This document shows, one piece after another, positions 1 through 41,348 of a stretch of DNA of 41,348 nucleotides. Under the pieces are notes generated by a model. The model had not been told where the DNA came from and searched no databases. It worked only from the letters and a program-made list of their open reading frames with translations. The stretch comes from Bacteroidota bacterium (GTDB lineage Bacteria; Bacteroidota; Bacteroidia; 2-12-FULL-35-15), in assembly GCA_029237775.1 (NCBI GenBank), contig JAQZBR010000012.1, positions 1 through 41,348 of the forward strand, given 5' to 3'. Position 1 is the stretch's first letter. Every line of letters starts with the position of its first letter. The position numbers and the translations under genes are program-made.

Positions 1-1869
1 ACGTTTGTAACAACCGTTGTTCCTGAAACAGGTGATGTTGGTTGAGTAACAGTAGCATTCACTGTTCCTGTACAACCGTTCACATCAGTAACCTGTACAC
101 TGTAAGTTCCTGCAACAAGACCTGTTCTGTCTTCTGTTGTTGGTCCCGAAGGCAGCCAGTTAAAAGTATATGGTCCTGTTCCACCTGATGGCGTTAAGTT
201 GATAGCTCCATTAGAACCACCGAAACAAGCAACGTTTGTAACAACCGTTGTTCCTGAAACAGGTGATGTTGGTTGAGTAACAGTTGTGTTCACTGTGCTT
301 GTGCAACCGTTCACATCAGTAACCTGAACAGTGTAAGTTCCTGCAACAAGACCAGTTCGGTCTTCTGTTGTTGGACCTGAAGGTAGCCAAAAGAAAGTAT
401 ATGGTCCGGTTCCACCGTTTGGTGTTAAGTTGATAGCACCATTAGATCCACCGAAACAAGAAACGTTAGTAACAACTGTTGTTCCTGATACAGGAGATGT
501 TGGTTGAGTAACAGTTGTATTCACTGTTCCTGTACAACCGTTCACATCAGTAACCTGTACAGTGTATGTGCCTGCAACAAGACCAGTACGATCTTCTGTT
601 GTTGGTCCGGAAGGCAGCCAGTTAAATGTATAAGGGCCAGTTCCACCATTAGGTGTTAAATTGATAGCTCCGTTAGAACCACCGAAGCAGGATACGTTAG
701 TAACAACCGTTGTTCCTGAAACAGGTGATGTTGGTTGAGTAACAGTTGCATTGATTGTTCCTGTACAAGCATTCACATCAGTAACCTGAACAGTGTAAGT
801 TCCTGCAACAAGTCCTGTACGGTCTTCTGTTGTTGGACCTGAAGGTAACCAGTTAAAAGTATATGATCCGGTTCCACCTGATGGCGTTAAGTTGATAGCA
901 CCATTAGAACCACCGAAACAAGATACGTTTGTAACAACCGTTGTTCCTGAAACAGGAGATGTTGGTTGAGTAACAGTAAATGGTTGAGTCGCTGTACATC
1001 CGTTAGCATCGGTAGCAGTAACAGTCCAGCTGCCGGCATTTAATCCTGTAACCGATGTTGTTCCGTCACCAGTTGGAGTACCAGGTGTCCAGTTATAAGT
1101 AAATCCTCCTGCACCACCGGTAGCAGGATTGATTGAAGCGGCACCATTCGATCCACCAAAACAGGTAATATTTGTTTGAGTAGCAGGAGTAATAGAAATA
1201 GCAGGTGGTTGAGTAATGGTGAATGTTCTTGATGCCAGGCAACCATTCGCATCTGTTACTGTTGCAGTGTAAGCCGAGGCTATAAGTCCTGTAACGCTGG
1301 TTGTGCCGTCACCTGTTGGATTCCCTGGTGTCCAGTTATAAGAATACCCACCTGCTCCTCCTGAAGCTGGATTTACACCAGCAGAACCATTAGATCCACC
1401 GAAACAGGAAATATTTGATTGAAATTGCGGAGTTAATAAAAGCGCAGTTGGTTGAGTTACACTAATACCGGTAACATTACGCGTACACCCATTGGCGTCA
1501 GTAATAATTACAGCATACGTAGCTGCTGCAAGACCTGTGCGGTCTTCTGTTGTGATACCGCCACCCCAGTTATAAGTATAGCCTCCGGCTCCACCTGAAG
1601 CTGTGAGGTTTATTGCACCAGTATTACTTCCGTTGCAGGCAACGTTTGTTACAACTGTACTTCCGTTAAGCGCAGTTGGTTGGGTAAGGGTAAAACTTCT
1701 GGTAGCAGAACAACCAATAATATCGTTAACAGTAACTGTATAAGTGCCCGCGGAAAGACCTGTTGCGATTGATCCGGTTCCACCGGAAGGGGACCATGAA
1801 TATGAATAAGGTGAAAGTCCTCCCGTTGGACTAACTGAAGCTGCTCCATTGCTCCCGCCAAAGCAGGAA
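1..1869 (-). repeat. Tandem 231-243 bp repeats encoding SprB domains
   Basis: Unit boundaries, marked by the recurring acgtttgta-type segment, fall at 1, 232, 463, 694, 925, 1168, 1411, 1642 and 1870. This gives spacings of 231, 231, 231, 231, 243, 243, 231 and 228 bp. The four units nearest the left edge are near-identical at DNA level, while those nearer the N terminus are more diverged. All spacings are multiples of three, so the array stays in frame. The gradient suggests recent expansion of the inner units, and the array probably continues to the left of the window. Confidence 0.95.
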
Positions 1870-2258
1870 ACATTAGTTTGTGCAGCACTAGCGGTTGAAA
1901 TACTTGAAACTGTCAATGTACCGTAATTGCTGTTTGTAAAACAAGTGACAACTCCATTATAAGCTACCAAACGATACATGTAACCAGACATACCTGCAGT
2001 AACACCTGTAACTACCAAAGAGTTTGTAGTTGCTCCGCTGTAAAGTGCACCATTGCTGATGTCGGCAAAGCCTGAGCCTGTATTAACCTGCCATTGTACG
2101 GATGTCGCGCCTGAAAAAGAAGCAGAGAACGCTGTGTTGCTGCCCGCACAAATAGCCCTGTTTGGGGGATTAGCTGTAACTGTCGGAGGTGTACATTGCG
2201 CAGCTGAATCAGCTACAAAGATTATGGCAAAGCTCAATAAGAGCAGAAACCTTTTCAT
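1..2258 (-). CDS. Large secreted SprB-repeat adhesin, 5' part only (runs off the left edge)
   Basis: The reading frame is open from the start codon to base 1, so only the N-terminal ~752 residues are present. It begins with a signal peptide (MKRFLLLLSFAIIFVADSAAQ). A ~115-residue Ig-like region follows, and then eight full tandem units of 76-81 residues, each with the pattern NVSCFGGSNGAA...Y.Y.W.....T..V.GL.AGTYTVTVTD.NGC. That pattern is typical of the SprB repeat (PF13573 type) of Bacteroidetes gliding adhesins and other T9SS cargo. By family knowledge it should be exported by T9SS and displayed or released at the cell surface; the sorting domain would lie outside the window. An in-frame ATG at 2291 would add 11 residues. 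I prefer 2258 because the signal peptide then has normal length. A promoter-like -7 box lies at 2347-2354. Family assignment is firm; the ligand is unknown. Confidence 0.9.
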   Translation of the reverse strand, partial: MKRFLLLLSFAIIFVADSAAQCTPPTVTANPPNRAICAGSNTAFSASFSGATSVQWQVNTGSGFADISNGALYSGATTNSLVVTGVTAGMSGYMYRLVAYNGVVTCFTNSNYGTLTVSSISTASAAQTNVSCFGGSNGAASVSPTGGLSPYSYSWSPSGGTGSIATGLSAGTYTVTVNDIIGCSATRSFTLTQPTALNGSTVVTNVACNGSNTGAINLTASGGAGGYTYNWGGGITTEDRTGLAAATYAVIITDANGCTRNVTGISVTQPTALLLTPQFQSNISCFGGSNGSAGVNPASGGAGGYSYNWTPGNPTGDGTTSVTGLIASAYTATVTDANGCLASRTFTITQPPAISITPATQTNITCFGGSNGAASINPATGGAGGFTYNWTPGTPTGDGTTSVTGLNAGSWTVTATDANGCTATQPFTVTQPTSPVSGTTVVTNVSCFGGSNGAINLTPSGGTGSYTFNWLPSGPTTEDRTGLVAGTYTVQVTDVNACTGTINATVTQPTSPVSGTTVVTNVSCFGGSNGAINLTPNGGTGPYTFNWLPSGPTTEDRTGLVAGTYTVQVTDVNGCTGTVNTTVTQPTSPVSGTTVVTNVSCFGGSNGAINLTPNGGTGPYTFFWLPSGPTTEDRTGLVAGTYTVQVTDVNGCTSTVNTTVTQPTSPVSGTTVVTNVACFGGSNGAINLTPSGGTGPYTFNWLPSGPTTEDRTGLVAGTYSVQVTDVNGCTGTVNATVTQPTSPVSGTTVVTN

Positions 2259-2346
2259 TGAAATCTTAATCAGAGTAATCTTTTGTGTCATGTTTTATTC
2301 TTTATTATGAAATGGATACTGATTGTAAAACGCTTGATGCGGGGCG

Positions 2347-2354
2347 CAAAAGTA
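2347..2354 (-). promoter_or_regulatory. Putative -7 promoter box for the SprB-repeat gene
   Basis: On the minus strand the sequence reads TACTTTTG, an exact match to the Bacteroidetes -7 consensus TAnnTTTG, followed by CGCCCC. It would place the transcription start about 50 nt or more before the first possible ATG. No clear -33 TTG lies at the usual spacing. A related gggcgcaaaa word (2342-2351) recurs at 2423-2432. Confidence 0.45.
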
Positions 2355-2458
2355 CTATTTAATATGAGTGAATTAACTTAAATATGATATTTAGCCGAAT
2401 TAATAATAATTTCTTCTAAATAGGGCGCAAAAATCCAGATTAAATAATTGATTTAAAA

Positions 2459-2474
2459 TAGTGGTTAACCACTA
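2459..2474 (-). terminator. Perfect 16-bp palindrome, possible terminator of the TMTC-like gene
   Basis: TAGTGGTTAACCACTA is a perfect inverted repeat (6-bp stem, TTAA loop), about 75 bp beyond the stop of the minus-strand gene ending at 2549. On that strand it is followed by TTTT. The stem is AT-rich and the U-tract short, so it would be a weak terminator. An operator for the SprB-repeat gene is the alternative. Confidence 0.4.
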
Positions 2475-2548
2475 GATTAAACAATTAAAAAGAGGGGGAA
2501 GATAAATAGTGAGATGAATAAAATTTTAAATTTAGAATTCTGCGCCTC

Positions 2549-4462
2549 TTACTTTTTAAGCCTTTGATATTCAGAGTAGTATTTGCCGGAATTTGCTTTG
2601 TCACCAAGCTTATCATAAGTAATAGCCAGAAAATAAAGAGGTTGAATATTTGAAGGATTCATTTTATATGAAGTCTCAAAAGCTTTGATAGCCTCCTGAT
2701 CCCGGTTGCTCATAGCAAGTGCATTTCCGTAATTCATGTAAAGTCCGGCTGTTGAGTTTCCTGCTTTCAGACCTTCTTCAAAAGTTTTACATGCTTTAGC
2801 ATATTCCTTTTTGTTGAACCATATAGATCCAAGTATCTCATAGGAAGCTGGAATTCTATTGCCCAGAGTATGTGCCCTTTCAAGATACACAATTGCACTA
2901 TCCGGTTCCTGTGACCTGAAGTAAGCATCACCAATGTTACCGCACAACATACCGTGATTATTCTTTAACTGTAATCCTTTTTTATAAGTTGCAATTGCTG
3001 ATTTGTATTCTTTCTTCTTTACATAAACAGAGCCCAGGTTGATCAATGCATCATAATAAGTCGGATCTATCTGCAGGCAGCGTTCAAATTCGGGAATCGA
3101 TGCTTGCTCTGTATTTGTACCATAAGAATTAGCCATTAGAGAAGTCCCATAATTGTAATGTACCCTTGCACTGTTCGGGACTGTTGTAACGTCTTTGGCA
3201 AATAATGTGGCGTTGTCTTTCCAGTCGGAATTGCGGGAAAACGTTTTCACTGAAAGGATCAGAAGAACCGGTATAAACAGGATAGCTACTTTATTAATAC
3301 TGAAATTTTTGACGATATCAGTTTTTAACAGCTTAAAGAAAAGCAGAGCTATCAATATAGAAGAGCCAATAGTGGAGACGAAAAGAAACCTGTCTGCCAT
3401 GGTAGCACCGATATTGAATAGAAGATTCCCGGTAAGAAAGAGAGGTAGCAGAATAAAAGCTATTGAAATGCTTACCAGCGGATTTTTTTTGAATAGGCTG
3501 AATGCAAAATAAATAAGCACACCTAAAAAAGCTAAACCAAGTAAAGCTAATGGTGATGAAAAGTTTATGATCGGGATTTGATTGAAGGAATAATCGTACG
3601 ACAATTCATAAGGATAAATAAGTTTTGCCATATATCTCGCAAACATGCCGAGAGCGGTCGCTTTTTGTTCCAGGAATGTGCCTGCAACAAGACTGTTGTC
3701 GTTCGGAGTGTATGTAATTACCGGTCCTGATGAACGAATGACGTATTGATGTAGCGCAAGCCATATAACAGAGGCTATGATCAGATTAGATCTGTTCTTC
3801 AAAATGGTTAGAATGTTTTTTTCTTTTAAATAGTCAAGCAGAAAGATGATCGGTAAAAAAATAATGGCGCCCTCTTTTGATAATAAAGCAAGAAAGAAAT
3901 AGGCAGCGCTCATCAACAGCGCGTAAGTTTTGTTATTCGCCACTTTTATATAAAGCTGATCACAACAAAGAAGAAAAAAGAGAAGTGCCAGGATCTCATC
4001 CCTGCTTTTGATGTTCGCGACAACTTCTGTGTGTAAAGGATTCACGACAAACAGAAGCGTGACAAATAGAAAGAACAAAGGGTTTATTGTTCTGAAAAAT
4101 TTTACCAGAAATTTATAAAGCAAACAGCAAGCAACGGTATATAAGAGAATATTAAACAAGTGATGAATTAATGGATTGTTCGGGCTTAGCTGGTATTCAA
4201 TTGCAAACATCACCAATGATAATGGACGGTATAGGCCTGCATTGGAATCCCAAAAGCCTTTCCAGTAAAATGTTGTAAAAAGTTCAGGAATGCTTTTAAT
4301 TCCTTCTTTGACCAGTTTATTGTTTTCTATAACCGCAATGTCGTCAAGCGCAAATCCATGATTAAGCGTATTGATATATAAGATCACCGACACTGCAGAG
4401 ATGATCAGATAGGCAGTTTTTGCAGGGAATGTAAAATCAATTGTTGTTGCTTTTTTTGACAT
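2549..4462 (-). CDS. TMTC-like multi-pass membrane protein with C-terminal TPRs (putative GT-C glycosyltransferase)
   Basis: The protein has about 637 residues. The N-terminal two thirds are strongly hydrophobic, with roughly 10 membrane segments. They carry the signature of bacterial TMTC-like/GT-C proteins: an acidic pair in NHGFALDDIAVIENN in the first loop, then YRPLSLVMFAIEY, and NPLHTEVVANIKSRDEIL. The last ~210 residues are soluble and contain about five tetratricopeptide repeats (for example ALINLGSVYVKKKEYKSAIA). Eukaryotic TMTC proteins are O-mannosyltransferases using lipid-linked sugar, so protein glycosylation on the outer face of the inner membrane is inferred but not demonstrated. 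I chose ATG 4462 (MSKKATTIDF) rather than 4513, because the extra 17 residues look like translated leader. It lies between the SUMF1-domain gene and the repeat adhesin, all on one strand. Confidence 0.8.
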   Translation of the reverse strand: MSKKATTIDFTFPAKTAYLIISAVSVILYINTLNHGFALDDIAVIENNKLVKEGIKSIPELFTTFYWKGFWDSNAGLYRPLSLVMFAIEYQLSPNNPLIHHLFNILLYTVACCLLYKFLVKFFRTINPLFFLFVTLLFVVNPLHTEVVANIKSRDEILALLFFLLCCDQLYIKVANNKTYALLMSAAYFFLALLSKEGAIIFLPIIFLLDYLKEKNILTILKNRSNLIIASVIWLALHQYVIRSSGPVITYTPNDNSLVAGTFLEQKATALGMFARYMAKLIYPYELSYDYSFNQIPIINFSSPLALLGLAFLGVLIYFAFSLFKKNPLVSISIAFILLPLFLTGNLLFNIGATMADRFLFVSTIGSSILIALLFFKLLKTDIVKNFSINKVAILFIPVLLILSVKTFSRNSDWKDNATLFAKDVTTVPNSARVHYNYGTSLMANSYGTNTEQASIPEFERCLQIDPTYYDALINLGSVYVKKKEYKSAIATYKKGLQLKNNHGMLCGNIGDAYFRSQEPDSAIVYLERAHTLGNRIPASYEILGSIWFNKKEYAKACKTFEEGLKAGNSTAGLYMNYGNALAMSNRDQEAIKAFETSYKMNPSNIQPLYFLAITYDKLGDKANSGKYYSEYQRLKK

Positions 4463-6028: not shown

Positions 6029-7627
6029 ATGAGCAAAAAAGAAATTAAACCTGTACAGAAGTTAAGTATTTTCTTATTGAAAGAAGATGTAAAAAATTTT
6101 AAAGATGCTTTAAAAGAAAAAGTGAGCGTCACTGAATATGCGATTAAAAAAAACCATAACATCGATGGGCTAATTTATGTTGGACTTGAAAAGTCTCATA
6201 CACCTGATTGGAAAAGATTACTACAAGAGGGCACTGATAAAAAGATGCCTCCATTATCGAGTTCTTCTACGAGAGCTTTGTTGTTTTTAAGGATAGATAA
6301 ACGGGTTTTCGTTTTGACCTTTGGCTACGGCAAACATTTAATTAAAGATGAAACAATAGAAAGGGATTTCGGGTTAAAAACAGCATTAAATCTAGTGGAT
6401 GCTGATAAATTGAGAAGTATGGATAAAGCTAATTTAGATAACTTAACTGTACTTACGCGAACTCAAACTAGTCAACAAGCTAAGCAAGAAGCCTTTGATG
6501 TAGATATTATACGGGACCTATTGAAAGGCATTACGGGTCAGCTTGACAGTGGTCAAGAAAATCTGGGGGCTTTTATTACAGGAAATGAAGGTGTTTATAT
6601 ATTGCCAAGAATTAATTTCGAAGATATTTCTAAAAGTCTCATTCAACTAAAGAAAGCTTACGATAGTAAAAAATATCTCACGAATTTCCATTGGATTGAC
6701 AATTTGAAAGCCGAAAAGGATCCATCCGTAATATCAAAAGTTCAGGAAAAATTAATAGAATCATTAAAGGGCAAAGATTCTCTCGATGTAAGTATCTCAC
6801 CGCCATTTCTAATTGATTGGTCTACATTTGAGGGCATTAGCTATACACCAAAAGGAGACCTCGAGCAAGATTTTAATATCGAAAGTTTCTACAGAATAAA
6901 GGAGGATGATTTAGCAGACCTAGATTGGGATAAATTAATAAAGATAAAAATTCATCTTCAAACGGACGATAAAGAGGATCGAACGTCTCTTCCCATTTGG
7001 CGCTGCCTTAATTACCAAACTACTATTAGGGATAATTTGTATGTATTTGCTTTTGGCAAATGGTACCGTGTTGCTTCCAGTTATGCAAAACAAATTAGAG
7101 ATTATGCTTTACAAATAGAAGAATCTACAGCTGTTTTTATTGACTGCCCAAGTGGAGTTGATGAAGGTGAATACAATATCCAACTAGCAAGTTCTGACGT
7201 TAATTATTCCCTATTTGACAAAGAATTAGTAAATACGGATCTTGTTAGGTCGGGTATTGAAGTATGCGATGTTTTGACCCAGAAAGGTGAATTCATTCAT
7301 GTTAAATTTAGAAAGAGCTCGGCAACATTAAGTCACTTATTTGCTCAAGGTAAAATATCGGCCTCTTTATTAATGAAAGATAGAGTATTTAGAAAAAACT
7401 TTCGTGGTAAGCTTAAAGGCATGAAACTGAATCCGGATTTGATACCATTAGAATATAAAGATCTGGACAAATCGAAGTATACAATAACTTTTGCCATTAT
7501 AGAAACGAAAAAACGAAGCTTCGTTGATTCACTACCATTTTTTAGTTTACTAAATTTTAGACTAACAGCGGAAGAACTTCAAAACTGGGGATTTAAAGTA
7601 CGTGTTAAGAAAATAGTTCAAGTGTAA
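6029..7627 (+). CDS. TIGR04141/DUF6119 family protein ('sporadically distributed'), defence-island associated
   Basis: The protein has 532 residues and no signal peptide or membrane segment. The N-terminal region (LSIFLLKEDVKNFKDAL...), the segment LLFLRIDKRVFVLTFGYGKH, and the early block FGLKTALNLVDADKLRSMDK followed by TQTSQQAKQEAFDVD match my memory of TIGR04141 (later DUF6119). That family of unknown biochemical function is scattered among bacteria, often beside restriction-modification genes. The C-terminal half is a second poorly characterised region. I see no recognisable nuclease or ATPase motif. It is 65 bp upstream of hsdM on the same strand, which fits a restriction accessory or separate anti-phage gene. 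By eye it is more AT-rich than hsdM and hsdR, suggesting a separate origin. Family call moderately sure; function unknown. Confidence 0.75.
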   Translation: MSKKEIKPVQKLSIFLLKEDVKNFKDALKEKVSVTEYAIKKNHNIDGLIYVGLEKSHTPDWKRLLQEGTDKKMPPLSSSSTRALLFLRIDKRVFVLTFGYGKHLIKDETIERDFGLKTALNLVDADKLRSMDKANLDNLTVLTRTQTSQQAKQEAFDVDIIRDLLKGITGQLDSGQENLGAFITGNEGVYILPRINFEDISKSLIQLKKAYDSKKYLTNFHWIDNLKAEKDPSVISKVQEKLIESLKGKDSLDVSISPPFLIDWSTFEGISYTPKGDLEQDFNIESFYRIKEDDLADLDWDKLIKIKIHLQTDDKEDRTSLPIWRCLNYQTTIRDNLYVFAFGKWYRVASSYAKQIRDYALQIEESTAVFIDCPSGVDEGEYNIQLASSDVNYSLFDKELVNTDLVRSGIEVCDVLTQKGEFIHVKFRKSSATLSHLFAQGKISASLLMKDRVFRKNFRGKLKGMKLNPDLIPLEYKDLDKSKYTITFAIIETKKRSFVDSLPFFSLLNFRLTAEELQNWGFKVRVKKIVQV

Positions 7628-17062: not shown

Positions 17063-17078
17063 TCCCGCACGTGCGGGA
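17063..17078. terminator. 16-bp perfect GC-rich palindrome after the TonB-type gene
   Basis: TCCCGCACGTGCGGGA begins 10 bp after the stop codon at 17051-17053. As RNA it would form a strong short hairpin. No long U-tract follows (next bases are TCGGCAAAAA), so termination is plausible but not secure. Confidence 0.4.
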
Positions 17079-17107: not shown

Positions 17108-17301
17108 TTTTCTTTTTGTCTTAAAACAAAAAGAAACAAAAAATTCAAGACAGAACGATCCCTTCCCGCTCTGCCATTTTCAGGAAAGTCTAAAGCACAA
17201 AAGCTAAAGTTTTTGCTGAGGTTTTCACTGAAAATGTCATTCACATCATGTCGACATCGCGTTCAGCCAATGCTCGCGCACGGCTCCGAAGCGAGATTTC
17301 A
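17108..17301 (+). repeat. Dispersed structured element, copy 1
   Basis: It starts with an A-rich box (17111-17150) containing the inverted repeat ctttttgt/acaaaaag. An outer stem pairs about 17151-17159 (cagaacgat) with 17256-17266. An inner stem pairs 17175-17183 (cattttcag) with 17228-17236 (ctgaaaatg). The apical stem closes on a loop with CTAAAG. A conserved block catgtcgacatcgcg lies at 17247-17261, and a second hairpin (ctcgc/gcgag) at 17273-17295. The same plan recurs in copy 2 with compensating changes. It lies in a gene-free 425-bp stretch (17054-17478). The rest of that stretch has only an inverted pair, cgtacctc at 17312-17319 and gaggtacg at 17376-17383. Confidence 0.8.
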
Positions 17302-40090: not shown

Positions 40091-41011
40091 ATGAGCGTAT
40101 TAGTAAATAAACAGTCAAGAATCATTGTTCAGGGCTTTACAGGTACTGAAGGTACTTTTCATGCCGGACAGATGATCGAGTATGGATCGAATGTAGTAGG
40201 AGGGGTAACTCCTGGAAAAGGCGGATCAACTCACCTTGATAAACCCGTATTCAATACTGTTAAAGAAGCGGTTGATAAAGCCGGAGCTGATGTTTCTATC
40301 ATTTTCGTTCCACCGGCATTTGCTGCTGACGCGATCATGGAAGCCGCTGAAGGTGGAATTAAAGTAATTATCTGTATCACCGAAGGTATTCCTGTGAAGG
40401 ATATGATCCAGGTGAAAGAATATTTAAAAGGTAAGGATTGCCGCCTGATCGGACCAAATTGTCCTGGCGTTATCTCTGCTGAAGAAGCGAAAGTTGGTAT
40501 CATGCCGGGCTTCGTTTTCAAAAAAGGAACAGTAGGTATCGTTTCTAAATCAGGAACTTTAACATATGAGGCTTCTGACCAGACCGTAAAAGCAGGTTTA
40601 GGTATCACAACTGCGATCGGAATCGGTGGAGATCCTATCATCGGAACTACCACCAAACAAGCGGTTGAACTATTAATGAACGATCCAGATACTCACGGTA
40701 TCATCATGATCGGTGAGATCGGTGGAAGTCTTGAAGCTGACGCAGCACGCTGGATCAAAGCTGATGGTAACCGTAAGCCTGTAGTTGGATTCATCGCTGG
40801 TGAAACAGCTCCGAAAGGACGTACAATGGGTCACGCAGGTGCTATTGTTGGTGGTGATGACGATACTGCTGAAGCTAAGAAAAAGATCATGCGTGAATGT
40901 GGAATCATTGTAGTTGATTCCCCTGCTGAGATCGGACTTGCAATGGCCAAAGCTCTTGCTGAAGATGTTCGCAAAGCAAGCCCGCACCATCATGCAAACA
41001 GAGTTGATTAA
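40091..41011 (+). CDS. sucD: Succinate-CoA ligase subunit alpha
   Basis: The 306-residue subunit catalyses the interconversion of succinyl-CoA and succinate in the TCA cycle together with SucC, which is not in the window. The CoA-binding domain has [20 protein letters not shown] and [13 protein letters not shown]. The ligase domain has [30 protein letters not shown], and the phosphohistidine loop [13 protein letters not shown] with H248. The C-terminal tail (PHHHANRVD) is slightly extended. Length and motifs are normal. It is monocistronic, bounded by a strong terminator. Confidence 0.98.
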
Positions 41012-41083: not shown

Positions 41084-41280
41084 TTCTTTCTTTTTGTCTT
41101 GAAACAAAAGAAACAAAATTCAAGATCAGGCGATTCCTCTGCGCCTCTCATCATTTAACCGGAAATCTAAGCATGAGAACTAAAGCTCCTGCCAAGATTT
41201 TCTGGTTAGATGATGTTCACCCCATGTCGACATCGCGCCTGATCAAGCCTCACGCGCTTCTTCGAAATAGTGATTGAAAA
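41084..41280 (+). repeat. Dispersed structured element, copy 2
   Basis: It has the same plan as the copy near 17.1-17.3 kb. The A-rich box (41091-41125) has tcttgaa/ttcaaga ends. The outer stem is 41126-41134 (tcaggcgat) with 41232-41242 (atcgcgcctga). The inner stem is 41149-41162 with 41202-41215 (catcatttaaccgg/ctggttagatgatg). The apical stem closes on a CTAAAG-containing loop. The conserved block catgtcgacatcgcg is at 41223-41237, and a second hairpin (tcac/gtga) at 41250-41273. It starts about 20 bp after the sucD terminator. The remaining bases to the window end show nothing recognisable. Confidence 0.8.
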
Positions 41281-41348
41281 TCATTAATGATTCTATATTA
41301 TCGGATATAAGTATTTTGTATCATGTCTTGCTTCGGTGAATAATGTTT

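Follow-up and report, generated by a model that had tools for sequence, protein, structure and literature searches.

The attC sites of integrons conserve structure over sequence, being imperfect hairpins that are recognised as folded single strands and that carry the consensus boxes R' (GTTRRRY) and R'' (RYYYAAC). The Flavo-1 RNA (RF01705) is an intergenic motif of Bacteroidetes. REPs, in the portions of two reports available to us, are 20-40 (up to 65) nt long, have a 5' GTAG/GTGG foot and flank their own transposase gene (PMC3733652, PMC6006769), and the second of these reports describes, in the same portion, a subclass 2.6 of Bacteroidetes Y1 transposases with atypical flanking structures. 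MITEs, for instance MITECca01 of the Bacteroidetes endosymbiont Cardinium, are short, non-autonomous and multicopy (PMC9769881, in the section consulted), and the STAXI motif is a repeated pseudoknot that its authors, in the consulted part of PMC2864571, thought possibly to act as single-stranded DNA.

In this work, we analysed a stretch of 41,348 nt (the window), contig C9 of a 4.08-Mb assembly of a Bacteroidota bacterium in 12 contigs, in which the initial annotation had placed two copies of a repeat conserved in secondary structure; both lie where it had put them (element spans 17109-17290 and 41087-41268). This element resembles REP/RAYT systems, as portrayed in the available portions of PMC3733652 and PMC6006769, in being dispersed, intergenic, palindromic DNA with many copies and species-specific stem sequences, whose fold is thought to be the recognised feature, whereas its length of 108-182 nt, against 20-65 nt for REPs, its pseudoknot, the missing GTAG/GTGG foot (18 copies of the source genome) and the missing linkage to Y1 genes separate it from them. 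It is short, non-autonomous and multicopy like MITEs, and in one relative (genome G029) its core lies within a MITE bounded by terminal inverted repeats and 3-bp duplications, but the copies of the source genome show neither an excess of target duplications nor common flanks and their conserved part is an internal fold. With attC sites it shares the conservation of structure rather than sequence; unlike them, it has no R'/R'' boxes, no integrase above the IntI cut-off accompanies it, and the copies of the source genome are mostly solitary. The STAXI motif is likewise a repeated pseudoknot, but it is enterobacterial and lies near DNA-handling genes (PMC2864571, same part), and the window has no Rfam match. 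Flavo-1 shares the intergenic setting in Bacteroidetes, but it is a separate neighbour whose Rfam match does not overlap the element. The pseudoknot, the size and the width over which one architecture is found set the element apart, whereas its way of life is that of dispersed palindromic, MITE-like repeats. A description or name was not found in the literature at title and abstract level, in largely open-access journals and without supplements.

Read 5' to 3' on the + strand, the element consists of a hairpin P1 (11 bp), an A-rich linker, the segment P2, the 5' arm of an outer stem P3, an inner hairpin P4 in the long form, a CGGCATCG-type block at the base of P3 and a tail (Table 1). The two window copies are 75% identical over an alignment of 178 nt. 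That they share an A-rich box had been recognised from the outset; what had been overlooked is that this box is the hairpin P1, whose loop CTT(G/A)AA pairs with TTCAAG downstream (in copy 1 with one A·C mismatch). The block CATGTCGACATCGCG, described as exact in both copies, is so (in copy 2 at 41223-41237); 0.02 matches to it are expected per window even allowing two mismatches, and no third place in the whole genome carries its first 14 bases. In the outer arm, four of the five pairs compared do change on both sides (columns 44-48 with 159-163 of alignment A3); in the fifth, copy 1 has an A·A mismatch, and one pair further out (columns 43 with 164) it has A·C where copy 2 has A-T. The inner arm pairs in both copies as proposed, with two G·T mismatches in copy 2. 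The further proposal of a 3' hairpin did not survive comparison, as over 17 copies of the source genome the mean length of the longest hairpin in this stretch is 3.5 bp, compared with 4.1 bp in shuffles (one further copy unplaced, and two rows in which the stretch begins about 18 nt early); the 3' tail is kept as a sequence (CNCGCGCNNCTTCG), not as a pairing. A terminator-like hairpin within 66 nt upstream was seen in 3 of 19 rows only, one of them nearly all A+T, and is therefore no general rule. Two copies of the source genome (L074 and L084) have a palindrome, CCCGATAGCTATCGGGA, inserted in their A-rich linker, and the similar CCCGCACGTGCGGG lies just upstream of copy 1, at 17064-17077.

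Table 1 Features of the two window copies and of related loci in other genomes.
Feature	Position	Strand	Basis or remark
Copy 1, long form, whole	17109..17290	+	BLASTN, covariance-model matches, alignment A3
Copy 1, P1 hairpin TTTCTTTTTGT / ACAAAAAGAAA, 6-nt loop CTTAAA at 17120-17125	17109..17136	+	read from sequence, covariation
Copy 1, A-rich linker CAAAAAA	17137-17143	+	
Copy 1, P2 TTCAAG, partner of P1 loop (H-type pseudoknot)	17144..17149	+	covariation
Copy 1, P3 outer stem, 5' arm CAGAACG	17151..17157	+	sequence, covariation, A3
Copy 1, P4 inner hairpin CATTTTCAG...CTGAAAATG, long form only	17175..17236	+	RNAalifold on A3
Copy 1, two CTAAAG motifs within P4	17190-17195, 17204-17209	+	
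Copy 1, CATGTCGACATCGCG block, exact in copy 2; usual family form ..CGGCATCG..	17247..17261	+	
Copy 1, P3 outer stem, 3' arm CGTTCAG, one A·A mismatch	17260..17266	+	sequence, covariation, A3
Copy 1, 3' tail, sequence-conserved, family form CNCGCGCNNCTTCG	17273..17290	+	
Copy 2, long form, whole	41087..41268	+	BLASTN, covariance-model matches
Copy 2, P1 hairpin, loop CTTGAA at 41098-41103	41087..41113	+	read from sequence
Copy 2, P2 partner TTCAAG	41119..41124	+	read from sequence, family covariation
Copy 2, P3, 5' arm TCAGGCG	41126..41132	+	sequence, A3
Copy 2, P4 inner hairpin CATCATTTAACCGG...CTGGTTAGATGATG	41149..41215	+	sequence, A3
Copy 2, P3, 3' arm CGCCTGA, perfect complement	41236..41242	+	sequence, A3
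G029, high-copy MITE loci	L091, L092, L096, L098, L100-L120		
G031, recombinase locus L382 (G031:C244): Phage_integrase gene, element, repeat, HigB gene, HigA-like ORF, element, repeat	1444-4231		
Flavobacterium caeni locus L148, Flavo-1 (RF01705) matches	4267-4350, 3400-3483	+, -	one head to head with a box element
Second palindromic insert, L148	about 3557-3630		
Second palindromic insert, L336	stretch after copy at 6921	-	

The claim that the element is dispersed holds, with about 25 copies in the source genome, the window pair included. BLASTN with copy 1 gave 20 genome matches, counting itself and one opposite-strand echo, and of 17 further places inspected in 16 stretches one (L020) held no real copy. 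Two forms occur: a long form of about 180 nt (up to 182), to which both window copies belong and of which ten were aligned as A3 (the window copies with L009, L010, L011, L012, L015, L017, L018 and L019), and a short form of about 108 nt (eight aligned) that has no P4. A covariance model, R1, built from the eight short copies, found 25 places in the source genome at E<=0.01 and, in a laxer single-genome search at E<=1, 36 places, which include fragments and opposite-strand echoes and from which at least one long copy (L012) is absent. An element lies no more than about 80 bp from the end of two contigs of the assembly (the window, at 41268-41348, and contig C11, at L009), as if these repeats were breaking the assembly.

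The initial annotation had also argued from compensatory change between the arms, and the 56 matches aligned to R1 (1282 pair cells in 25 pairs) bear this out. Of these cells 97.2% are paired and 18 of the 25 pairs show double changes, giving a covariation score of 0.472 against 0.139 (sd 0.008) in shuffled and 0.050-0.093 in slid controls. By stem, 99.0% of the P1 cells are paired and 9 of its 11 pairs change on both sides, all 8 pairs of P3 vary on both sides, and free variation in P2 is confined to the last pair (A-U 24, U-A 23, C-G 3, unpaired 3); the alignment leans towards P1 and P3 because both were in R1, which P2 was not. In copies found by a search pattern for the 5' box, the loop pair that the pattern leaves free is complementary in 126 of 127 (about 56 expected) and the two inner P1 pairs, likewise free, in 249 of 254. 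For the long form, RNAalifold over the ten copies of A3 gave 41 pairs, 27 of them with double changes. The stems covary far beyond both controls, the pseudoknot between P1 loop and P2 recurs across the Bacteroidota, and the chance similarity of two intergenic regions, which the initial annotation had allowed for should further copies or covariation among them be lacking, does not describe this family. In Chryseobacterium, L162, L186, L195 and L220 are apparently one locus in four species, with shared neighbours and diverged arms, and this would be a good place to study compensatory change in situ.

What this pairing serves is a matter of RNA or DNA, the two options named at the start, and of these the palindromic DNA of REP/MITE kind fits better and the folded RNA worse, almost all pairs being Watson-Crick. 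In covarying RNA stems, G·U pairs are common and A·C pairs rare. The 56-row alignment has 1231 Watson-Crick cells, 15 G·U, 16 A·C and 20 other (n=1282), although an alignment to an RNA model tolerates G·U and is to that extent biased against the DNA reading; P1 and P2 of 204 elements have 7 G·U against 20 A·C, 8 of these at a single position and perhaps inherited; and the downstream stems of 203 elements have, as isolated mismatches, 7 G·U, 10 A·C and 23 other. Among 320 cells of fifteen tRNAs from the fetched sequences, 19 were G·U and none A·C, in a control whose finder admits by its rules G·U and not A·C, which counts against the DNA reading. DNA is favoured over RNA because G·U is no commoner than A·C, unlike in the tRNAs. 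Neither in P1 and P2 nor in the downstream stems was there a G·U asymmetry in favour of the + strand; A·C was somewhat commoner.

A structured non-coding RNA or RNA processing element, with its fold under selection and its dispersal secondary, would account for the strong covariation of the stems, and the geometry, as reasoned from established pseudoknots and without a tool, also suits it: on the + strand, S1 of 11 bp, S2 of 5-6 bp and a linker of 7-9 nt are feasible and like known RNA H-type knots, whereas the - strand knot would require a zero-length loop over a 6-bp stem. H-type pseudoknots with an A-rich third strand are more usual in RNA, which counts against the DNA reading, and the boxes lie mostly between ORFs, with 6 of 128 inside an ORF call and 35 at a contig edge and so unclassified. 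Nevertheless, besides the lack of preference for G·U over A·C, (i) in each of 18 copies of the source genome the - strand has the more stable fold (mean minimum free energy -48.8 against -40.8 kcal/mol for the + strand, without shuffle control), (ii) the orientation to neighbouring genes is not fixed, all four arrangements of flanking genes occurring (34/20/19/14), (iii) copy 2 sits past the terminator of a sucD-like gene, and (iv) no window match reached an Rfam gathering score, and the 28 sub-threshold matches obtained at E<=5 with 15 loci of the source genome were all to unrelated families. We regard an RNA function as unlikely, though by no means negligible; the element looks more like fold-recognised mobile DNA than like a working RNA. 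Sixteen loci of other genera gave with Rfam only Flavo-1, beside an element, and Flavo-1 was rejected as a homologue because it only neighbours the element in L148; it may itself be a dispersed palindrome.

The data are evidence that pairing is kept in DNA, through recognition of a DNA fold or through correction by template switching. The initial annotation was right that pairing is kept, but template switching at replication, rather than the selection it named as the cause, may keep part of it. In the portion of PMC8794818 available, template switching yields multi-base compensatory changes in one event. Quasipalindrome correction of this kind could be what mainly keeps the stems perfect, producing covariation without selection on the fold, while the repeat spreads as a passenger of MITEs and by recombination; it predicts restoration of Watson-Crick pairs with no preference for G·U, as observed, and tandem amplification and carriage in MITEs are both seen. 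It accounts poorly, however, for the complementarity of P1 loop and P2 kept throughout the phylum in all but one of the copies counted above, for the conserved unpaired motifs (the tail, CGGCATCG, CTAAAG) and for the wide spread of one architecture, and we consider it a rather improbable explanation of the whole.

Turning to mobile DNA, the element is short and carries no transposase gene, as is usual for a MITE, and it has been dispersed as a discrete unit, with similarity ending at its borders: long copies are 75% identical in the core and 56-57% in the 50-bp flanks on each side, against 57% in shuffled flanks, and short copies 79% in the core and 57-59% in the flanks. Between copy 2 and the stop codon of the sucD-like gene (40091-41011), whose product has succinyl-CoA ligase domains, lie 75 bp. 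Thirty sucD loci of the genus were retrieved, including that of the window and one that runs no further than the gene, and in all 28 relatives with sequence there the intact box behind sucD is absent; the intact unit is missing from the orthologous site in relatives. The comparison covers one of the two window copies and its near junction, the far flank lying past the contig end, and three of the 28 relatives hold remnants of related repeats near sucD: in G025 a degenerate R1 piece 238-335 bp downstream (29.1 bits), in G023 an R1 piece on the upstream side (33.3 bits) and a bare hairpin remnant with no P2 168 bp downstream, and in G029, by eye, a shrunken MITE remnant downstream. These limits and remnants count against the mobility reading, as does the lack of an excess of target duplications in the copies of the source genome (best excess 1.6 against a shuffle mean of 2.0 in 18 copies, the 3' ends of L009_1 and L018_10 having been placed too early); the 5' ends of these 18 copies read TTTC, TTAC or TAAC.

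In G029, 27 copies with both ends form a MITE of 237-241 bp that carries the core; the MITE's terminal inverted repeats are imperfect (GTGAAGTTTTCGAAATAA against TTATTTTGAAAGCTTTAC), and its ends lie outside the core. Identical 3-bp flanks (TTA, TAA, TAG, TAC) are found in 19 of the 27, a few of which are tandem neighbours with a common junction; 1000 shuffles gave 8.5 on average and 15 at most. In this genome, where movement is clearest, the MITE's own ends account for it and the core may be a passenger, which counts against a mobility of the element's own.

Besides, no enzyme was found, which counts against the mobile-DNA reading too. In 699 ORFs from 118 loci with 128 boxes, no ORF family recurred beside the element in more than 8 loci, and the most recurrent, in 8 loci, is by eye a receptor-like protein. 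The TnpA-REP-like transposase that the initial annotation had suggested looking for was not encountered: the box is present in 0 of 60 Y1 loci (188 kb, part of the Y1 genes seen), with a finder that detected it in 117 of 118 positive loci, and R1 found the element in 0 of 30. A Y1 transposase occurs in 48 of 59 genomes and its presence does not track the element, since five genomes of the same genus (G006, G010, G024, G028 and G031) contain 3-18 elements but lack a Y1 match, while G005, G011, G026, G030 and G034 have Y1 and no element. The sole Y1 protein of the source genome has DHCH and YVVNQKEHH motifs, resembling subclass 1.2 and not 2.6 as these appear in the portion of PMC6006769 at hand, and identity of the element with the structures of subclass 2.6 of that report is unlikely, judging by the linkage test rather than by sequence comparison. 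That the element is a REP like those of REP/RAYT systems and is mobilised by a Y1 (TnpA-REP) transposase would fit its genomic style, which is similar, but the empty Y1 loci, the independent occurrence in five genomes each way and the motifs of the source genome's Y1 make it highly improbable. Linkage to RAYT/Y1 was rejected, as neither co-occurrence nor neighbourhood supports it.

Tyrosine recombinases offer a different partner, if the element were an attC-like site of an integron-type system whose folded form is used by an IntI-related enzyme. In addition to conserving structure rather than sequence, elements form same-strand arrays with a spacing of 240-386 bp in some genomes, and in G031 a HigB toxin gene (PF05015) and, by eye, a HigA-like ORF lie between two copies, 0.2 kb from a Phage_integrase-family gene resembling IntI; this arrangement looks like a small cassette array. 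Elements of G010 and G025 also lie near the same integrase subfamily (62-69% identical). The linkage is suggestive only: it holds for 3 of 40 fetched integrase loci (3 of 20 with model and box finder, 0 of 20 with box finder only), at varied distances and orientations, and was noticed post hoc. Moreover, none of the 59 genomes has an integrase above the IntI cut-off TIGR02249, although diverged IntI relatives exist, also in the source genome; both R' and R'' boxes are present in 0 of 18 copies of the source genome; and the array spacers read mostly as no gene cassettes. The integron reading is therefore kept as a weak rival, and a doubtful one, given spacers that are mostly repeats, missing boxes and so sparse a linkage.

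The element reaches well beyond its source genome. R1 matches 41 of 59 genomes, the source included, in 13 of 24 genera, where E is reckoned per genome so that some weak single matches outside the genus may be chance; the richest relative is G029, with at least 65 matches. In a genome collection the 5'-box pattern occurs in at least 118 stretches, and the 80 box matches listed are nearly all from Bacteroidota, the exceptions being single records of Neomarinimicrobiota, Patescibacteria, Rhodothermia, Propionigenium and an unclassified source. The box was found in 39 of 395 genomes drawn from the phylum, the source included, and the reversed pattern gave zero matches among those listed for these 395. 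Eight viral contigs carry the box, and plasmids (three queries) and phages (one query) gave no element matches. The arms stay complementary while their sequence changes, and the 5' box is widespread in Bacteroidota. Behind the box, other genera have by eye different, equally palindromic-looking arms, with CTAAAA, AACTCGC..GCTCAAACAG and TTAACG as recurrent motifs; since the arms differ, the source genome's form appears to represent one branch of a wider family.

In L339 and L340 (G169), L341 (G154) and L344 (G382), two to four elements stand in tandem with a spacing of about 290-390 bp, the spacers in G169 being degenerate AATCTAAAATC/TCTATCATC-like repeats. In L336-L338 (G413:C5, G142:C19) and L231, elements lie between genes of nucleotide-sugar and polysaccharide synthesis, several of them confirmed with Pfam, and in G413 and G142 on the same strand as these genes; it is possible that they are recombination points there. 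A second small palindromic insert, which starts AGCTCAC and holds GTTCGCTGA, splits the P1 hairpin in two genomes (by eye).

Altogether, we see about an even chance that the window copies belong to a non-autonomous mobile DNA repeat whose fold is fixed and which an enzyme acting in trans recognises as folded DNA. The unit comprises the 5' hairpin P1 pseudoknotted with P2, the outer stem P3, closing either a short loop or the long inner hairpin P4, and the 3' tail, which keeps its sequence. The unit would be recognised in folded DNA, single-stranded or extruded, and a recombinase would act on it in trans, much as on shape-recognised attC sites or REP/IS200 ends; because recognition would be by shape, the stems may take any sequence that pairs. 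Most copies sit between genes, a few of them directly behind terminators, and ordinary MITEs can carry them further. Whether this amounts to a new class of mobile element throughout the Bacteroidota, its signal a DNA pseudoknot with covarying stems that drift while pairing, its recombinase acting in trans and possibly an IntI-like tyrosine recombinase, is a tentative proposal that we advance as a possibility.

Covariation of stems commonly passes for proof of a functional RNA, and here strong covariation comes without the expected tolerance of G·U. The family could thus be used to separate selection on RNA, recognition of a DNA fold and correction by template switching. The analysis gives a defined anatomy to a widespread repeat of an abundant phylum, apparently unnamed in the sources searched, and the family provides a test set for finding the enzyme that would mobilise it.
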